This document shows, in pieces, positions 1,246-13,068 of a DNA stretch of 64,000 nucleotides (position 1 is the first letter of the stretch; each line of letters opens with the position of its first letter). This DNA comes from Streptomyces sindenensis. Its GTDB lineage: Bacteria; Actinomycetota; Actinomycetes; Streptomycetales; Streptomycetaceae. The position numbers and the translations under genes are program-made. The stretch is taken from contig NZ_BMSG01000006.1 in NCBI RefSeq assembly GCF_014649035.1, positions 186,001-250,000 of the forward strand, given 5' to 3'. Under the pieces are notes generated by a model. It worked only from the letters and a program-made list of their open reading frames with translations, made no database searches and had not been told where the DNA came from.

Positions 1246-1353
1246 GGTGCGGCTTCCGGCCGTTGAGGGGAGCAGGCGACCATCCTAGGCGGCGCACCGC
1301 GGTGGCCGTACGACGGAGGGGCCGGAACGCGGGAGGGCGGCACCGCCGCCCCC

Positions 1354-3057
1354 TCAGAACCCCCTGGTCCGCTTCGCCGCCCGGCGGCTCGCCCCGCCGA
1401 TCGCCCCCGGCAGCCCCATGAACAGCCGGGAGATCTCGCTCCCCAGATTCACCCCGATCGCGATGGCCAGCGCCGTCGCCACCGCCGTCGACAGCGAGGT
1501 GAGCCCGGTGACCAGCTCGTTCTGCGCCACGCCCAGCAGACCGAAGTACGTCGCCGAACCGGGCAGCAGCGGCCCGATCGCCGCCGTGATGTACGGCAGC
1601 GAGGAGTGGAACCGGTAGCGCGAGAACAGCTGGCCGAACAGGCCGACCAGCCCGGCCGCCACCGCCGTCGCCGCGACCGGTGAGATGCCCCCGGTCCGGG
1701 CCATCGCCCCGAAGATGATCCAGGCCACGCCGCCGTTCAGGGTCACCGCCAGCACGGTCGACCGCTCCTGCTGGAGCAGCACGGCGAAGGCCAGGCTCAG
1801 CGCCATCGACGCCAGGATCTGGACCACCGGCTCGTCGTAGGGCGTGAACCGGGCCTCGGGGTTGAGCTGCGCCCCGAGCTGGAGCCCCAGGTACAGGACG
1901 ATCAGCACGCCCGCGACGATCCCGATGAAGAAGTACATGACTTCGAGCAGCCGGGCCGAGGCGGTGATGTAGTAACCGGTCAGCCCGTCCTGCACGCCCG
2001 CCACCAGCGCCCGCCCCGGCAGCAGCGCGAACAGCCCACCGGTGATCACCGCGGACGGGCGGACGTCCGTCGAATGGGTCAGCGTCAGTGCAACGCCCAA
2101 CGCGGCGGGCGGCATCGCGGCCACCGTGAACTGGTAGAACTCCGGCAGCCCGCGCCCGGCGCACAGCCACGCCAGCCGGTCGCCGAGCATCGCGCCCGCC
2201 GCCGCCACCAGGAACACCAGGAACCCACCGCCGACCAGCACGGAGGCCGAACCGGCCAGCAGCCCGGCGGCCGCCGTCAGCACCCAGCCCGGATACGGGT
2301 GACGGTTACGGCGGATCTCCGCGAGCCGCCGGTAGGCCTCCTCCAGCGACACCTCGGCGTCCGTGCTGGTGATGTCGTCGACCAGCCGGAACACCGCCGC
2401 AAGACGCGTGTAGTCGGTGCCCCGGCGGCGTACGGTACGGCTCGCCGTCACCGGGTCGTCGACCAGCGACGGCTGGTGCGAGATGGACAGCAGGGTGAAC
2501 GTGACCGTCGGCTCACTGCGGTCCAGACCGTAGGACCGGGTCACCGCGAACATCGCCGCCTCGACGTCCTCGGCGCCCTCGCCGCCCGCCAGCAGCAGCT
2601 CCCCGATACGCAGCGTCAGGTCGAGCACGCGCGGCACGGCCGGACCCGTGTCGTCGTCGGTGCGCTGGATCGACTCGGCCGCCGGACGCTCCGTCACCGG
2701 CATCCGCAGCATCGTGCGCATCCGGTCCTGCCAGGGCGCCTCCTTGGTCAGCTTGACCATCGGAATGCCCTGCGCCGGGGTGAAGGCGGGCGGCGACTGC
2801 TGGGCCCGGTACGTGCTCGGCGGGGTGAAAGCGGAACTCAGCGTGTCGGAGTTCGCACCGCCTCCAACGCCGCCGCCCGAGCCGGCCGGACCGTGCTGTT
2901 CCGGCTGCACCCCGGTCGGCAGCGCGAACTCCGACGTCGGATGGTCCTCCTCGGGCGGTGACACCGGATGCATCGTCCCTGCGGGCGGAGCGAAAGCGCT
3001 CCGCGCCTCGTCGGACTGGGGCTTCTGGTCCTCAGGACCGCCCGATTCCGCCACCAC
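1354..3057 (-). CDS. Threonine/serine exporter family protein (ThrE-like)
   Basis: 567 residues. The first ~150 are polar, proline-rich and low complexity. They are followed by a conserved soluble segment (LDLTLRIGELLLAGGEGAED, typical of the DUF1212/ThrE N-terminal domain) and about ten transmembrane helices ending in a basic tail. Single-chain ThrE proteins such as that of Corynebacterium glutamicum export threonine and serine by proton-motive force. The GTG at 3057 is chosen because GAGG lies about 8 nt upstream. The substrate is unproven; a dicarboxylate or small-peptide exporter is also possible for this superfamily. Confidence 0.85.
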   Translation of the reverse strand: MVAESGGPEDQKPQSDEARSAFAPPAGTMHPVSPPEEDHPTSEFALPTGVQPEQHGPAGSGGGVGGGANSDTLSSAFTPPSTYRAQQSPPAFTPAQGIPMVKLTKEAPWQDRMRTMLRMPVTERPAAESIQRTDDDTGPAVPRVLDLTLRIGELLLAGGEGAEDVEAAMFAVTRSYGLDRSEPTVTFTLLSISHQPSLVDDPVTASRTVRRRGTDYTRLAAVFRLVDDITSTDAEVSLEEAYRRLAEIRRNRHPYPGWVLTAAAGLLAGSASVLVGGGFLVFLVAAAGAMLGDRLAWLCAGRGLPEFYQFTVAAMPPAALGVALTLTHSTDVRPSAVITGGLFALLPGRALVAGVQDGLTGYYITASARLLEVMYFFIGIVAGVLIVLYLGLQLGAQLNPEARFTPYDEPVVQILASMALSLAFAVLLQQERSTVLAVTLNGGVAWIIFGAMARTGGISPVAATAVAAGLVGLFGQLFSRYRFHSSLPYITAAIGPLLPGSATYFGLLGVAQNELVTGLTSLSTAVATALAIAIGVNLGSEISRLFMGLPGAIGGASRRAAKRTRGF

Positions 3058-3166
3058 TCGACCTCGTTCCTGCTCGACTGCACGTCACTGGGGGTCGGCC
3101 CCGTCGCACGTGTGCCCAGTATGGCCACCGGCATGGGCCCCGCACGCGAGGAAGCGCGGACAGCGA

Positions 3167-3202
3167 AACGGGCGGCACACCCGCGAAGGTGTACCGCCCG
3201 TT
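3167..3202 (-). terminator. Hairpin terminator downstream of ppa
   Basis: Inverted repeat with arms AACGGGCGG and CCGCCCGTT, one mismatch, then an inner ACACC/GGTGT stem and a 6-nt loop. It sits 45 bp past the ppa stop and lacks a clear U-tract, as is common for Streptomyces terminators. It also separates ppa from the ThrE-like gene. Confidence 0.7.
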
Positions 3203-3246
3203 CGAAGACGGCCGTCCGGCTCACAAACGGAACCGGAAGAGGGACG

Positions 3247-3741
3247 TCAGTGCGCGCCGCCCTGCGCCTCAAGACGCTTGTAGGAGGCCTCGATCTCGGC
3301 CTCCGCCTCGGCGCGGCCGACCCAGTCGGCGCCCTCGACGGACTTGCCCGGCTCCAGGTCCTTGTAGACCTCGAAGAAGTGCTGGATCTCCAGGCGGTCG
3401 AACTCCGACACGTGGTGGATGTCGCGCAGGTGCTCCACACGCGGGTCGGACGCCGGGACGCAGAGCAGCTTGTCGTCGCCGCCCGCCTCGTCGGTCATCC
3501 GGAACATGCCGATGGCGCGGCACTTGATGAGGCAACCGGGGAAGGTCGGCTCGTCCAGGATGACCAGCGCGTCCAGCGGGTCGCCGTCCTCGCCGAGGGT
3601 GTTCTCGACGAAGCCGTAGTCGGCCGGGTAGCTGGTCGAGGTGAAGAGTCGACGGTCCAGGCGGATCCGACCGGTCTCGTGGTCCACCTCGTACTTGTTC
3701 CGCGAACCCTTCGGGATCTCGATGGTGACGTCGAACTCCAC
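3247..3741 (-). CDS. ppa: Inorganic pyrophosphatase
   Basis: 164 residues; soluble family I pyrophosphatase that hydrolyses PPi to two phosphates and so drives biosynthetic reactions. Visible motifs are [11 protein letters not shown] near the N-terminus and the metal-binding GDPLDALV segment near residue 60, with full family length. The start is GTG at 3741: it gives the family N-terminus ([12 protein letters not shown]) and has a GGAGGAG ribosome site 6 nt upstream. An ATG at 3756 coincides with that ribosome site and is less likely. The divergent neighbour is dacB, 86 bp away. Confidence 0.95.
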
Positions 3742-3827
3742 GGGTGGCTCCTCCATGATCAACACATACGACTGGTGATTAAGTGTCCCCCACGCAGAAG
3801 TGTGCTCGCGAAAGGGGCTGGTCAGCG

Positions 3828-5303
3828 GTGGCCGAGCAGGTGGAAGAACCGTCGGTGCGCCCCTCGGGCCCGTGGGGCGGGCCGAAGATCCTGACGAAGA
3901 AGCGCAACGGGGCGTACACCTGGCAGGTGATCGCAGGCTCCGCAGCGCTCGGCCTGGTCGTCGCCGCCGGCGCCGTCCTCGCCGCCGGCCCCTGGGACAA
4001 CGGTCAGCGTAAGGCCGAGCGGGCACTCGCAGCCGCCGGTGACCGCACAGGTGGCGCACATCACGGCCGCCCGACGCCCGACGGCCCCCGCCCGGCCCCC
4101 AGCGCCCCGGCCGTCCTGCCCGCCCTCGGCACCACCACCCAGGACACCCCCCAGGACCCCGCCGCACTCCGCGACACCCTCGCCCCGCTCATCGGCGAGC
4201 CCGGCCTAGGCGACAAGGTCGCCGCGTCCGTCATCGACACCGCCACCGGCGAGCAGCTGTACGGGCAGGGCGCCACCACCCCGATGACCCCGGCCTCCAC
4301 CATCAAGATCGCCACCGCCACCGCGGCCCTCTCGGTCCTCGGCCCCGACCACCGCATCGCCACGACCGCCGCGCTGTCCCCCGACTCCCGCACCGTCACC
4401 CTCGTCGGCGGCGGCGACCCCACGCTCAGCAGGGCGGCCCTGCGCGCGATGGCCGCCGACACCGCCGACGCCCTGCGCGAGGAGGACCGGGACTCCGTAC
4501 GGCTGGCCTACGACATCTCCCGCTACACCGGCCCCGTGCTCCACCCGATCAGCCCCAACGAGAACATCGCGCCCGTCACGGCTCTGATGGTCAACGAGGG
4601 CCGCCTCAACGACACGGACCGCGGCACCGCCGAGCGCAGCAAGGACCCCGCGGGCGACGCCGCCCGCACCTTCGCCGCCGCGCTGGAGAAGGCCGGCGTC
4701 AAGGTCACCGGCGCCCCCCGCGAGGCCCGCGCCGACGACGAGGCCCGCACCGTCGCGACCCACCGCTCCGCCCCGCTCGACGCCCTCGTCGAGCGCACCC
4801 TCACCAACAGCGACAACGACATCGCCGAGGCCCTCGCCCGGCAGACCGCCATCGCCAAGGGCGAGAGCGCCTCGTTCGCCGGGGCCCGCCGCGCCGTCAC
4901 CAACGAGCTGAAGAAGCTCAAGGTGCCGGTGGCCGGCGCCCACTTCGCCGACGGCAGCGGCCTGGACCGCGCGGGCCGGGTCACCCCCGCCCTCCTCACC
5001 GCCCTCCTCGCCCGCGCCGCCGAACCCGACCGCCCCGGACTCCGCCCGGTCCTCACCGGCCTCCCGATCGCCGGATTCAGCGGCACCCTCGGCGGCCGGT
5101 ACGGGTCCGACGCCGAGGGCACCGGCCTGATCCGCGCCAAGACCGGCACCCTCTACGGCGTCAACTCCCTCGCCGGCACCGTCGTCGACCGCCGGGGCCG
5201 GCTGCTCGCCTTCGCCTTCCTCGCCTCCGGCAGCCTGACCGCGAGCGAGGCCGAGCCCGCCCTCGACGCCCTGGCCACCGCCGTCGCCGGAACGGGCGGC
5301 TGA
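3828..5303 (+). CDS. dacB: D-alanyl-D-alanine carboxypeptidase/endopeptidase, PBP4 (S13) family
   Basis: 491 residues from the GTG at 3828 (AAAGGGG lies 10 nt upstream; GTG at 3783 would add 15 residues). A short cytoplasmic stretch is followed by one N-terminal membrane anchor ([20 protein letters not shown]) and an extracytoplasmic penicillin-binding domain. Catalytic motifs are visible: SxxK (STIK, about residues 157-160), SxN (SDN within [12 protein letters not shown]) and KTG (AKTGTLYG) near the C-terminus. The family trims or cleaves peptidoglycan stem peptides. Product confident; the exact start is uncertain. Confidence 0.9.
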
Positions 5304-8651: not shown

Positions 8652-10712
8652 ATGGACGTGAAGCGATACTTCCGTGGGCCGGTCATGTGGATCGTGCTGG
8701 CCGTCCTCGCCGTGGTCGTGTTGATGCAGGTCGTCGGCTCGTCGGGCGGCTACAAGACGGTGGACACCGGCAAGGTGATCCAGGCGATCAGCAAGGACCA
8801 GGTGGAGCAGGCCAAGCTGACCACCGGTGACGAACAAATCCTCAAGATCGAACTGAAGGACGGCCAGAAGCTCGAAGGCGAGTCCGGCAGCAAGTTCCAG
8901 GCGAGCTACATCGGCAACCAGGGCGTCGAGCTCGCCGACACGCTGCAGACGAAGTTCGAGGCGGGTGACATCGAGAAGGGTTACACCGTCTCGCCGTCGA
9001 AGCAGTCCCCGTTCGTCTCGATCCTCCTCTCGCTGCTGCCCTTCGTCCTCATCGTGGTCGTCTTCCTGTTTCTGATGAATCAGATGCAGGGCGGCGGTTC
9101 CAAGGTCATGCAGTTCGGCAAGTCCAAGGCCAAGCTGATCACCAAGGACACCCCCAAGACGACCTTCGCCGACGTGGCGGGGTCCGACGAGGCCGTCGAG
9201 GAGCTCCACGAGATCAAGGAGTTCCTCCAGGAGCCGGCGAAGTTCCAGGCCGTCGGCGCCAAGATCCCCAAGGGCGTCCTGCTCTACGGTCCGCCCGGTA
9301 CGGGCAAGACGCTGCTCGCCCGCGCCGTCGCCGGCGAGGCGGGCGTCCCGTTCTACTCGATCTCCGGGTCCGACTTCGTCGAGATGTTCGTCGGTGTCGG
9401 TGCCTCCCGCGTGCGTGACCTCTTCGAGCAGGCCAAGGCGAACGCCCCGGCGATCGTCTTCGTCGACGAGATCGACGCCGTCGGCCGCCACCGCGGCGCC
9501 GGCATGGGCGGCGGCCACGACGAGCGCGAGCAGACGCTCAACCAGCTGCTCGTCGAGATGGACGGGTTCGACGTGAAGGGCGGCGTCATCCTGATCGCCG
9601 CCACGAACCGCCCGGACATCCTCGACCCGGCGCTCCTGCGCCCGGGCCGCTTCGACCGGCAGATCGCGGTCGACCGCCCCGACATGCAGGGCCGCCTGGA
9701 GATCCTCAAGGTGCACCAGAAGGGCAAGCCCGTCGCGGAGGGCGTCGACCTCGGCGCCGTCGCCCGGCGCACGCCCGGCTTCACCGGCGCCGACCTGTCG
9801 AACGTGCTCAACGAAGCGGCGCTCCTGACGGCGCGCAGCGACAAGAAGCTCATCGACAACGAGAGCCTCGACGAGGCGATCGACCGCGTCGTGGCGGGCC
9901 CGCAGAAGCGGACCCGGATCATGTCCGAGAAGGAGAAGAAGATCACCGCGTACCACGAGGGCGGACACGCCCTGGTCGCGGCGGCCTCCCCCCAGTCGGA
10001 CCCGGTCCACAAGATCACGATCCTCTCCCGCGGCCGCGCCCTCGGTTACACGATGGTGCTCCCGGAGGAGGACAAGTACTCCACGACCCGCAACGAGATG
10101 CTCGACCAGCTGGCGTACATGCTGGGCGGGCGCGCGGCCGAGGAACTGGTCTTCCACGACCCGACCACCGGCGCGGCGAACGACATCGAGAAGGCCACGG
10201 CGACGGCCCGCGCGATGGTCACGCAGTACGGCATGACGGAGCGTCTCGGCGCGATCAAGTTCGGCGGCGACAACTCGGAGCCCTTCCTGGGCCGCGAGAT
10301 GGGCCACCAGCGCGACTACTCGGAAGAGGTCGCGGCCCTGGTCGACGAGGAGGTCAAGAAGCTCATCGAGACCGCCCACAACGACGCGTGGGAGATCCTC
10401 GTCGAGAACCGCGACATCCTCGACGCCCTGGTGCTCGAACTGCTGGAGAAGGAGACGCTGGGCAAGGACGAGATCGCCGAGATCTTCGCCCCGATCGTCA
10501 AGCGCCCGGCCCGCCCGGCCTGGACCGGATCCGCCCGGCGTACCCCGTCGACGCGTCCCCCGGTGCTCTCGCCCAAGGAGCTGGCCCTCACCAACGGCAG
10601 CGCCAACGGCTCGGCCACCCCGCCGGAGATCGCCCCGACGGCGGGCCTGACCAAGGACATCGCCCCGTCCACCGAGGCGATCCCCGAGGACCGTCCGGAC
10701 GACAACAGCTAG
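8652..10712 (+). CDS. ftsH: ATP-dependent zinc metalloprotease FtsH
   Basis: 686 residues. Two transmembrane segments (near residues 10-30 and 115-140) flank a small extracytoplasmic domain. The AAA+ module has Walker A GPPGTGKT at 213-220 and Walker [10 protein letters not shown] near 270. The protease zinc site is HEGGH at 435-439. The C-terminal ~60 residues are a low-complexity tail. It degrades misfolded membrane and regulatory proteins. The start [10 protein letters not shown] is the only credible one, yet the best ribosome site (AGGAGGG, 8621-8627) lies 24 nt upstream, which is unusually far. A SigR-type promoter lies upstream. Confidence 0.97.
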
Positions 10713-10877: not shown

Positions 10878-11483
10878 ATGACCGACCCGGTGACGCTGGA
10901 CGGCCAGGGTTCGATCGGCGAATTCGACGAGAAGCGGGCCGAGGCGGCCGTACGCGAACTGCTGCTCGCCGTCGGAGAGGACCCGGACCGCGAGGGCCTG
11001 CGGGAGACGCCGGGGCGGGTGGCGCGGGCGTACAAGGAGATTCTGGCCGGTCTGCGGCAGGAACCCGAGGACGTGCTCACCACGACGTTCGATCTCGGGC
11101 ACGACGAGATGGTCCTGGTGAAGGACATCGAGATCATGTCGCTCTGCGAACACCACCTCCTGCCCTTCCACGGCGTCGCGCACGTCGGCTACATACCGGC
11201 CGACTCCGGCAAGATCACCGGCCTGTCGAAACTGGCCCGGCTGGTGGACGTCTTCGCCCGCAGGCCCCAGGTGCAGGAACGACTCACCACGCAGGTCGCG
11301 GACTCGCTCATGCGGATCCTGGAGGCGCGGGGCGCGATCGTGGTGATCGAGGCCGAGCACATGTGCATGTCGGTGCGGGGCATCCGCAAGCCCGGGGCGA
11401 AGACCACGACGTCGGCCGTGCGGGGCCAGCTCCGCGATGCCTCGACCCGCGCCGAGGCGATGAGCCTCATACTGGCGCGCTAG
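10878..11483 (+). CDS. folE: GTP cyclohydrolase I
   Basis: 201 residues, the usual length. The zinc/active-site motif [10 protein letters not shown] begins at Cys90, and the C-terminal [16 protein letters not shown] segment is diagnostic. It converts GTP to 7,8-dihydroneopterin triphosphate, the first step of folate synthesis. Start ATG 10878 with GAGG upstream. The remaining folate genes (folP, folB, folK) lie just downstream on the opposite strand. Confidence 0.97.
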
Positions 11484-11502
11484 CTGTCAGTGGTGCCCGA
11501 TA

Positions 11503-11540
11503 CGCTCCTCGGCCTGTGATGGTGAACAGGCCGAGGAGCG
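11503..11540 (+). promoter_or_regulatory. 15-bp perfect inverted repeat covering the next gene's ribosome site
   Basis: Arms 11503-11517 (CGCTCCTCGGCCTGT) and 11526-11540 are perfect complements around an 8-nt loop. The right arm contains GAGGAG (11533-11538), which sits 6 nt before the ATG at 11545. It could be a folE terminator without a U-tract, or a hairpin hiding the ribosome site of the intein-like gene. Seen directly; role inferred. Confidence 0.7.
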
Positions 11541-11544
11541 CTGC

Positions 11545-12533
11545 ATGAGCGACGGGTTACCGAGCAGGCAGACCGTGAACGCGGTGGGAGGGCGTCTCCG
11601 GGCCCGGGAGATCGCTGTCGGCACCAGGCTGTGGACGCTGCACGGGCACCGCGCGGTACAGACGACGGTCACGGACGTGACGGCCGTCAAGGTCAGGACG
11701 GCCGTGGAGGTCGCCACGAGCCATGCGGCCTTCACGGTCTCCGGGGATCTTCTCCTGGCCACACCGGCTGGCTGGATCCGTGCCGAGGACGCGGCGGGCA
11801 GAACCATCGCGTGGACCCACGCGCGCAAGCTCTGCCGCGAACGGCTCACGTTCCGCATGGGATACGCGTTCGGCTATGTCGTGGGGGCCACCTGTGCCGA
11901 CGGCACGGTGGGCAAGAACTACGTCTCGCTCGTCGTGAACGACGAGGCGTTCGCCACCCGCTACGCGAGGTGCCTCACGGAGGCGACGGGTCTTGAAGCA
12001 CGGCTTCAGCCCGTCGTGCGGCCCTCCGGGTATCTGGGGCGGGACCTCCCGGGCTTCCGGGTCCGGGTGGTGTCCTCCTACCTCGCCGACGCCCTGCGTC
12101 AGTACGCAGGTGGCGAGGCGCACCACATGAGGCAGGCGTTTCCCCGGGTCGTGCTGCGGGACCGTGAGGTCTTCGACGGTTTCCTCGACGGGTACGCGGA
12201 CGGTGACGGGTGCCGTGCCAAGCACTGGGCCGGCCGGACCCTGGTCAGCGCCAATGTGCCGTTCCTCGTCGACCTCGCCGAGATCATCGGCGCACGGTTC
12301 ACCCCGCGAGGAACGGCCTCGCGTCGCACCTGGTCGTGGTGGACCGCTGGGCGGCCCGCGGGACCTTCCGGCCGGAGCATCACGACGCCGACCCCGTGGA
12401 ATCGAGCTGGGTGACCGTCGAGTCCGTGCGACCCCGTCCCGCGCCCGGCAAGCCGTTCACCCTGTACGGATACCGGCTCCAGCCGCATCCCACGTTCCTG
12501 GTCAACGGACATCTGGTCCGCGTGGCGGCGTGA
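11545..12533 (+). pseudogene. Stand-alone intein-like (Hint + LAGLIDADG endonuclease) gene, frameshifted
   Basis: Frame 1 (from ATG 11545) carries a Hint-like N-terminal part, including a block-B-like segment ending ATPAGWIRAED, then two LAGLIDADG-type helices: GYVVGATCADGT and FLDGYADGDG. Around 12300-12340 similarity moves to another frame, as after loss of one base, and ends at 12533 with TFLVNGHLVRVAA, which resembles an intein C-terminal block (normally ending in His-Asn). There is no flanking extein, no N-terminal Cys/Ser nucleophile in the usual place, the block B His is missing and the terminal HN is absent, so splicing is unlikely. Codon 5 is TTA (11557-11559). It could be a sequencing error rather than a true frameshift. 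Confidence 0.7.
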
Positions 12534-12579
12534 CCGGCCCGGTTGCCTCGCGGATCGGGCAGCTGGGCCGTGCCCTGCG

Positions 12580-13068
12580 TTACGCCGCCGCCGTGCCCGT
12601 GCCGTCGTGGTCGTTGCCGTCCTCCGGGAGGCGGCAGACGCGTTCCAGGAAGAGGGCGGCCGCGATGACGCCGATGCCGGCGAGGACCGCCGCGCCCGCG
12701 TAGATGGCCTGGTCGCGGCGGGGCGGGATGTCGAGGTAGCTCAGGAGGAAGACGCCCGTGCCGCCGTACATGCCGGCGACCAGGGCGGCCACCAGGGCGC
12801 TCGCCTGGCCGAAGACGACCGCGCGGGCCGCGAACAGGGGCTCGACGCCCTTGGCGCCGGGGCGGCGCTCGCGTTGGGCGCGCAGCCGGGCGCGGGTGGA
12901 GAGGGCGGTCGCGAGGAGGATCACCGCGATCACGGCGAGCACGATCGACGCGGCCAGCGGGACGCTCGGCAGGGTGCCGAAGGAGTCCCAGAGGCGGGCC
13001 CCGCCCCAGGAGAGGACACCGGCGGCGGCGAAGAGGCCCGCCAGTACCCCGAGCCGTAGTTGCTTCAC
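12580..13068 (-). CDS. DUF3180 small membrane protein
   Basis: 162 residues with four hydrophobic helices and a short charged C-terminus, matching the DUF3180 family that is habitually encoded after folK in actinobacteria. Function unknown. The GTG at 13068 (VKQLRLGVLAG) is preceded by GGCGG. It is the last gene of the leftward folP-to-folK group and converges with the intein-like gene 46 bp away. Confidence 0.85.
   Translation of the reverse strand: MKQLRLGVLAGLFAAAGVLSWGGARLWDSFGTLPSVPLAASIVLAVIAVILLATALSTRARLRAQRERRPGAKGVEPLFAARAVVFGQASALVAALVAGMYGGTGVFLLSYLDIPPRRDQAIYAGAAVLAGIGVIAAALFLERVCRLPEDGNDHDGTGTAAA

Follow-up and report, generated by a model that had tools for sequence, protein, structure and literature searches.

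A stand-alone LAGLIDADG endonuclease gene 3' of folE in Streptomyces, descended from an intein of FolE

Introduction

The WHO/HO elements of yeasts encode intein-derived LAGLIDADG endonucleases that exist without an extein (PMC7282813). WHO elements lie 3' of a housekeeping gene that is conserved, and the 3' end of this gene has its own history; resistance to the elements is achieved through allelic sequence differences, and many copies are pseudogenes. The proteins carry a zinc finger, the VMA1 intein is their proposed origin, and FBA1 is a new target (PMC7282813). For yeast HO, a step from intein to free endonuclease has been inferred, although there the target gene changed.

Free-standing endonucleases are also found in phage T4, where the genes segF, segG and mobE lie beside their targets and undergo “intronless homing” with co-conversion. 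Some T4 homing endonuclease genes have a hairpin over the ribosome-binding site (PMC2988022). Among actinobacteria, Arth_1007 of Arthrobacter FB24 is described as an intein without a recognisable host protein that was shown not to splice and was called a pseudogene (PMC3196547). Our searches of the literature on Streptomyces inteins and on intein-derived or stand-alone endonucleases revealed nothing comparable to the element described below, as judged by title and the start of the abstract among the papers listed.

Results

An intein-like gene directly 3' of folE

The window, by which we mean the whole stretch of 64,000 nucleotides of Streptomyces sindenensis DNA that was analysed, carries an intein-like gene directly 3' of folE (Table 1). 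An earlier reading of the sequence alone had placed this element at the folE/folK junction. The folE side of that placement is correct, but a DUF3180-type gene precedes folK. The genes 3' of the element, on the opposite strand, we take from sequence and order to be the DUF3180-type gene, folK, folB and folP. The element consists of an ORF at 11545-12414 (+) whose frame is continued by a second ORF at 12210-12533 (+). As the sequence-only reading had proposed, a one-base frameshift separates the two parts, and aligning 8.85 kb with S. parvus (97.4% identical) shows no other indel within the ORF. A search for intact orthologues, which the same reading had recommended, found uninterrupted ORFs in S. 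parvus, S. rubiginosohelvolus, S. fimicarius and other close relatives. Thus, the frameshift belongs to the window strain or to its assembly (101 contigs) and not to the family, and it may be a sequencing error in the C run. Programmed frameshifting was set aside because the close relatives have a continuous ORF. No Rfam family matched positions 11450-12700 at gathering score.

Table 1. Coordinates of features at the folE locus of the window
Feature	Position (strand)	Basis
ftsH	8652-10712	ORF; named from sequence and gene order
folE (GTP cyclohydrolase I), former host gene and presumed target	10878..11483 (+)	ORF; FolE match in 294/295 genomes of the genus
folE stretch around the ancestral intein insertion point, codons 83-104	11124..11189 (+)	Intein junctions SL/C...HN/CEHH and scan of A/T-ending codons
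Leader hairpin, 15-bp stem, 11503-11517 with 11526-11540	11503..11540 (+)	Leader folds and covariation
Stand-alone endonuclease, intein-derived, portion 5' of the frameshift (TTA is codon 5)	11545..12301 (+)	ORF
Hint (splicing-domain) N-terminal part	11575..11814 (+)	Relatives aligned to intact inteins, and fold
First LAGLIDADG helix GYAFGYVVGATCADGTVG, catalytic acid conserved	11860..11913 (+)	Alignment to intact inteins
Second LAGLIDADG helix FDGFLDGYADGDG, acids conserved	12172..12210 (+)	Alignment to intact inteins
C run, one base shorter than in S. parvus (frameshift)	12302..12305 (+)	Alignment with S. parvus
Remainder of endonuclease and intein-like C-terminal strand GYRLQPHPTFLVNGHLVRVAA, other frame	12306..12533 (+)	ORF and alignment

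Profile searches, also recommended earlier, did match the element, but only below curated cut-offs. With the window protein, Pfam LAGLIDADG_3 gives an E value of 0.0011, below its gathering score, and NCBIfam PRK14898 matches residues 102-252 with an E value of 1.7e-8, far below its cut-off. LAGLIDADG_3 was found in 6 of 12 family members (E up to 0.01). The window protein has no match by sequence in the PDB, and a profile gave a single chance-level match there. The S. parvus copy is 54% identical to a real intein over its whole length, and 50-54% identical to three measured FolE inteins. An AlphaFold model of this copy, built from eight sequences, is of low confidence (mean pLDDT 52.5) and was therefore used for the kind of domain only. 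When compared with the PDB by Foldseek, it most closely resembles VMA inteins that bear an endonuclease (E 2e-8) and, next, mini-inteins. Upon re-alignment, inteins, BIL and hedgehog Hint domains match residues 1-323 of the model (Z 9-10.6), whereas I-DmoI matches residues 107-272 (Z about 8). Together, the sub-threshold profile matches, the identity to an intein and the low-confidence fold bear out the Hint-like N-terminus, two LAGLIDADG helices and intein-like C-terminal strand recognised by the sequence-only reading. No Pfam match to a zinc-finger domain was obtained, and the aligned ORFs stop 2 to 4 residues past the intein end.

The element is thus related to inteins over its full length, with Hint halves flanking a LAGLIDADG domain, but it is not an in-frame insertion in a host protein. 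In 20 loci it is a separate ORF that begins 58-82 nt (once 228) 3' of the folE stop codon. In one genome (locus L009, genome G066), about 160 extra bases separate the folE stop from the element leader.

Inteins inside FolE outside Streptomyces

A relative of the element resides inside FolE in a metagenome-assembled genome labelled Gemmatimonas phototrophica (L007), whose locus was found by similarity. There, the FolE N-terminus runs to ...DIEMYSL, is followed by C-VPSKQIVNAVGG...HLTHN, and resumes with CEHHLLPF... Profile searches yielded six more FolE-intein loci with the same insertion place. Three come from actinobacterial genomes in other families (L149, L150 and L151), and three are viral contigs, of which L155 and L156 have the same sequence and L157 is separate. 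Inteins in FolE, for which the sequence-only reading had advised a search in relatives, therefore exist and share one site. All six distinct FolE inteins keep Cys1, the TxxH of block B, the terminal His-Asn and Cys+1. The cysteine immediately 3' of the insertion site (SL/CEHH) is a zinc ligand of GTP cyclohydrolase I. In the folE of the window, the corresponding junction lies between 11144 and 11145, 5' of the TGC codon for this cysteine (11145-11147).

The FolE of L150 (genome G503; 1246-3837 of the reverse complement) has two intein-like inserts, one 5' of each of two conserved cysteines, and the LAGLIDADG acids of the first insert are degenerate. These loci add FolE to the hosts of inteins, with two insertion sites, 5' of two conserved cysteines. 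No report of an intein in FolE or GTP cyclohydrolase was found in a literature search that was partly judged by title and the start of the abstract.

The viral folE genes carry intact inteins at the same site, and viruses may therefore move the intein. A second viral scan returned the same three contigs. Phage records searched with the FolE intein alone gave no match. When searched with FolE plus the intein, 392 phage records matched, none over more than 80% of the query, and the best 20 of the 392 are FolE pieces without an intein or are unannotated. Plasmids searched with the stand-alone protein gave no match.

Distribution and splicing loss of the Streptomyces element

A match to the element is present in 31 of 295 Streptomyces genomes, in all of which it lies directly 3' of folE (30 with loci; the 31st, G277, as L085). 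Within the order, the element was found in 22 of 245 genomes and in one of eight genera, and a sample of 346 genomes from the phylum gave 6 matches, of which three are the in-FolE inteins of L149, L150 and L151. Thirteen of 15 further carriers from the order have a locus, and all 13 elements start 70-84 nt past the end of the FolE match. Loci L069, L077 and five more were first scored negative, yet they hold remnants or scars. No Streptomyces folE with an intein inside was found among the ~150 FolE places listed, nearly all of which match end to end. One genome (G041) has a further 217-bp piece (L024:3156-3372), 100% identical to its own element and in opposite orientation, inside folK; this piece is either a repair insertion or a misassembly.

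Element-bearing folE loci number 37, of which 22 have an ORF that is open over nearly its whole length and 15, including that of the window, are broken. Alignment to intact inteins upholds the earlier observation that the splicing residues are missing. In the window protein, Cys1 is replaced by Gly at residue 4 (hand alignment) or by Met1 (MAFFT), Leu occupies the position expected for the block B His, and Arg-Val stands in place of the terminal His-Asn. The same is true of the family, in that all 22 intact copies lack Cys1 at the aligned position, which MAFFT sets against the start codon and hand alignment against the Gly before [LP]xSK. All 22 also lack the block B His, and none ends in His-Asn (L014, L018 and L025 have cut or shifted ends). 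Nonetheless, the two LAGLIDADG motifs with their acidic nuclease residues are retained in 22 of 22.

The 22 stand-alone copies form one clade relative to the six inteins (support 100/100), such that a single escape suffices; the long intein branches leave the order among the inteins unsure in this tree. In the griseus clade (15 pairs), dN/dS is 0.107 for the nuclease part, 0.373 for the N-terminal Hint part and 0.197 for the C-terminal part. The corresponding values for the pairs used from all 22 intact copies are 0.148, 0.311 and 0.290. The loss of splicing residues, together with the lowest dN/dS in the nuclease part, indicates that splicing was dropped and that the nuclease is the part most kept by selection. 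As judged from these sequences, then, the element has lost protein splicing and kept a LAGLIDADG endonuclease under selection. The sequence-only reading described the element as decaying, which does not hold for the family, given that 22 of the 37 loci are open and under purifying selection that is strongest in the nuclease part. That reading had offered either an intein that lost its extein or a free endonuclease derived from one. The latter agrees with our data, but the extein was not simply lost, since the former host is the adjoining folE.

Presence of the element changes 20 times on the local tree. Among 32 carriers, element distances correlate with those of ftsH (r 0.71), DUF3180 (r 0.83) and the folE 3' part (r 0.80). 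The element therefore tracks its neighbours about as well as it tracks the folE 3' end, and much of its history looks vertical.

A leader hairpin and a TTA codon

A hairpin forms between the folE stop codon and the element start codon in all 31 leaders that were folded, which comprise the 22 intact copies and 9 of the 15 decayed ones, the latter picked for a complete leader. Its 3' arm holds a Shine-Dalgarno-like sequence, which in the window is GAGGAG at 11533-11538, and in several clades the start codon of the element is paired as well. Of the 14 bases that precede the start region, 7 to 14 are paired, and folding energies range from -22.9 to -37.9. One leader, that of L014, does not fold better than its simple shuffles (z -0.8). 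When 30 leaders are aligned, both sides have changed in 6 of the 10 consensus pairs. Scars occur at five of the 95 folE loci that initially counted as element-free: four retain the leader with its hairpin, and the fifth retains the sequence surrounding the start codon. The hairpin over the ribosome-binding site probably holds translation of the element low.

TTA codons in Streptomyces depend on bldA. The TTA reported earlier at codon 5 of the window element is indeed present, at 11557. Seven of the 22 intact copies have TTA at that aligned position, and 11 have a TTA codon somewhere. In some clades, this codon could be a second brake on expression.

Codon recoding at the old intein site

We compared 132 distinct folE genes (22 with intact elements, 15 with decayed elements, 5 with scars and 90 without a trace), a sample that is biased toward FolE resembling that of the window. 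The share of codons ending in A or T was scanned along folE in intervals of 12 codons. For 16 intact carriers outside the griseus clade, the top intervals fall at offsets -8 to 0 from the zinc cysteine (0.43, median 0.15), and the peak of 14 decayed carriers is likewise at the site (0.45, median 0.13). The five scar loci have their top interval elsewhere (offset +91), and trace-free folE genes show a weaker peak that is also near the site (0.19, median 0.07). With the griseus group included, the excess of A/T-ending codons at the site relative to upstream is greater in genes with a trace of the element than in those with none (p 2.6e-6). The same holds within the LPFHG type defined below (0.303 versus 0.127, p 2.2e-4). 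When close relatives are thinned, the excess is 0.23 versus 0.01-0.04, with median p values of under 1e-4, 1e-4 and 0.012 at three levels, although p is not always below 0.05 at the harshest level. On supported-branch pairs of a tree of ftsH plus the folE 5' part, trace and recoding coincide on average 5.5 times and disagree 0.4 times (median p 0.06). Among 13 new carriers, two have griseus-type folE without the excess, and 9 of the other 11 show it.

We rejected an inherently odd codon usage of folE as the cause, because the peak is missing from the gene in other genera. In 21 high-GC folE genes taken from other members of the class outside Streptomyces, the A/T-ending share is 0.039 at the site versus 0.058 around it (25 were examined and 4 were left out as not high-GC), and none of the 25 loci has an element. 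The griseus group, to which the window belongs, has a GC-rich site and no recoding (A/T-ending share 0.05-0.14) despite the low dN/dS of its nuclease, whereas the same stretch of folE is recoded in most other carrier groups. Some genes for in-FolE inteins also have A/T-ending codons beside the insertion.

Two histories within folE

The residues that follow the site assign FolE proteins to types, namely LPFHG (H), VPFRG (R) and others. The H/R dimorphism is genus-wide, spans folE codons 85-99 (11130-11174 in the window), and is linked to the 3' end of the gene and hardly to ftsH.

A tree of the folE 3' part beyond the site separates H from R in one step (support 97). In contrast, H/R requires 23 steps on a tree of ftsH alone, on which an R clade is rejected (p 3.6e-45), and 14-16 steps on a tree of ftsH plus the folE 5' part. 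The H and R types show an Fst of 0.057 for ftsH and of 0.134 for the folE 5' part, where it rises locally at codons -44 to -28. Fst is 0.385 for the site, which itself defines the two types, and 0.262 for the folE 3' part, which does not. Comparing carriers and scar loci with the closest relative that lacks a trace gives differences of 0.065 (upstream), 0.238 (site) and 0.152 (3' part), versus 0.054, 0.116 and 0.095 for trace-free genomes compared in the same way. These data demonstrate that folE is chimeric, its 3' end having a history unlike that of ftsH upstream. The discordance is measured against ftsH as the one upstream reference, to which recombination within ftsH could contribute, and the folE 5' part is intermediate.

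Traces of the element are present in none of 46 R-type folE genes (47 before one row without ftsH was dropped) versus 38 of 72 H-type genes (p 3.5e-11). The swap of folE type is not tied to a visible element in R types.

Discussion

A homing endonuclease gene derived from a FolE intein

Sequence comparison, with the full-length relationship to FolE inteins and the position beside folE, shows that the Streptomyces elements originated as a FolE intein, which came to be a separate gene in the folE 3' flank. We think it likely, on the whole, that this escaped intein is now a homing endonuclease gene, with cleavage and mobility being the inferred components. According to this model, the intein would have left FolE and settled 3' of folE, and its enzyme would still recognise and cut folE at or near the old intein site. 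An intein shields its site by the insertion itself; once the intein is outside, the folE of a carrier must be shielded by changed letters, as is seen in most carrier groups. Carrier alleles would accordingly resist through their recoded site. If a sensitive folE entered the same cell, the enzyme might cut it, and recombination repair with the carrier could copy the folE 3' end together with the adjacent endonuclease gene, which would amount to homing without splicing. In the griseus group, folE may be protected otherwise, or the enzyme may read another stretch. A broader version holds that this is a bacterial WHO-like element, with an intein in FolE elsewhere, a single escape in Streptomyces, splicing discarded, the nuclease kept, the target recoded for immunity, and the element itself repeatedly driving the replacement of folE 3' ends throughout the genus. 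We regard the case for this version as evenly poised.

The correlation of element distances with those of the neighbouring genes, and the fact that 15 of the 37 element-bearing loci are broken, that of the window included, could instead point to a relic. The element would then be an ancient, immobile copy that was inherited vertically, lost many times and is inactive now, and the odd folE codons would be only the footprint of former intein homing, with co-conversion from foreign donors. The A/T-ending codons beside some in-FolE inteins are in keeping with this possibility. However, a nuclease dN/dS of about 0.11-0.15 in intact copies, a hairpin preserved by compensatory changes and the 20 changes of presence are not expected of an inactive remnant, and we judge this explanation unlikely. 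The purifying selection that weakens the case for a relic would also be expected if the protein no longer cuts and is retained for a host function as a domesticated regulator or DNA-binding protein, as in WhiA. The long association with the locus and the absence of recoding in the griseus group would be understandable on these grounds. Yet the nuclease acids are conserved in every intact copy, and a needed host gene would hardly be so patchy (31 of 295 genomes, with 15 decayed copies and 5 scars among 132 folE genes). Nor would domestication lead one to expect the old site to be recoded in most other carriers and not in other genera. Domestication therefore seems to us rather improbable.

It is also conceivable that the place 3' of folE has another cause and that the enzyme targets another sequence, such as the intergenic region. 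The related inteins occupy one site in FolE, and a scan of the entire folE gene places the codon peak there, which makes mere coincidence of location highly implausible. We thus favor a homing endonuclease gene that escaped from a FolE intein. If this is true, it predicts which folE alleles are sensitive and which are immune, and homing without splicing becomes directly testable in Streptomyces.

Comparison with known systems

The FolE inteins (L007; L149, L150 and L151; L155/L156 and L157) resemble the Streptomyces element in family over the full length, in the gene involved and in their endonuclease motifs, which are degenerate in L150. They differ in being in-frame within FolE with all splicing residues, whereas the Streptomyces element is a separate, splicing-dead gene 3' of folE. 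Arth_1007 is similarly actinobacterial, lacks the block B His and has no recognisable host protein, but it is reported as a pseudogene (PMC3196547), whereas the Streptomyces element is a conserved gene family beside its former host gene. The genes segF, segG and mobE of T4 share with the element a free-standing gene by the target, in some cases a hairpin over the ribosome-binding site, and the same logic (PMC2988022). However, the T4 enzymes are phage GIY-YIG or HNH proteins that are not intein-derived, unlike the intein-derived LAGLIDADG protein of Streptomyces.

A duplicated folE 3' fragment behind the element, which would be a WHO feature, was absent from 42 loci, with only matches of 14-27 nt in 8 of them. 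Relative to WHO/HO, the Streptomyces element also differs in that no zinc finger was found, its neighbour is the original host gene, and it is bacterial. The two are alike in having no extein, in lying 3' of a conserved gene (folE being the inferred target) whose 3' end has its own history, in a resistance that would rest on allelic differences, and in including many pseudogenes (PMC7282813). The intein form and the escaped form both exist, as do decayed copies, scars and empty loci. If our reading is correct, the passage from intein to free endonuclease can be traced in bacteria at a single gene.
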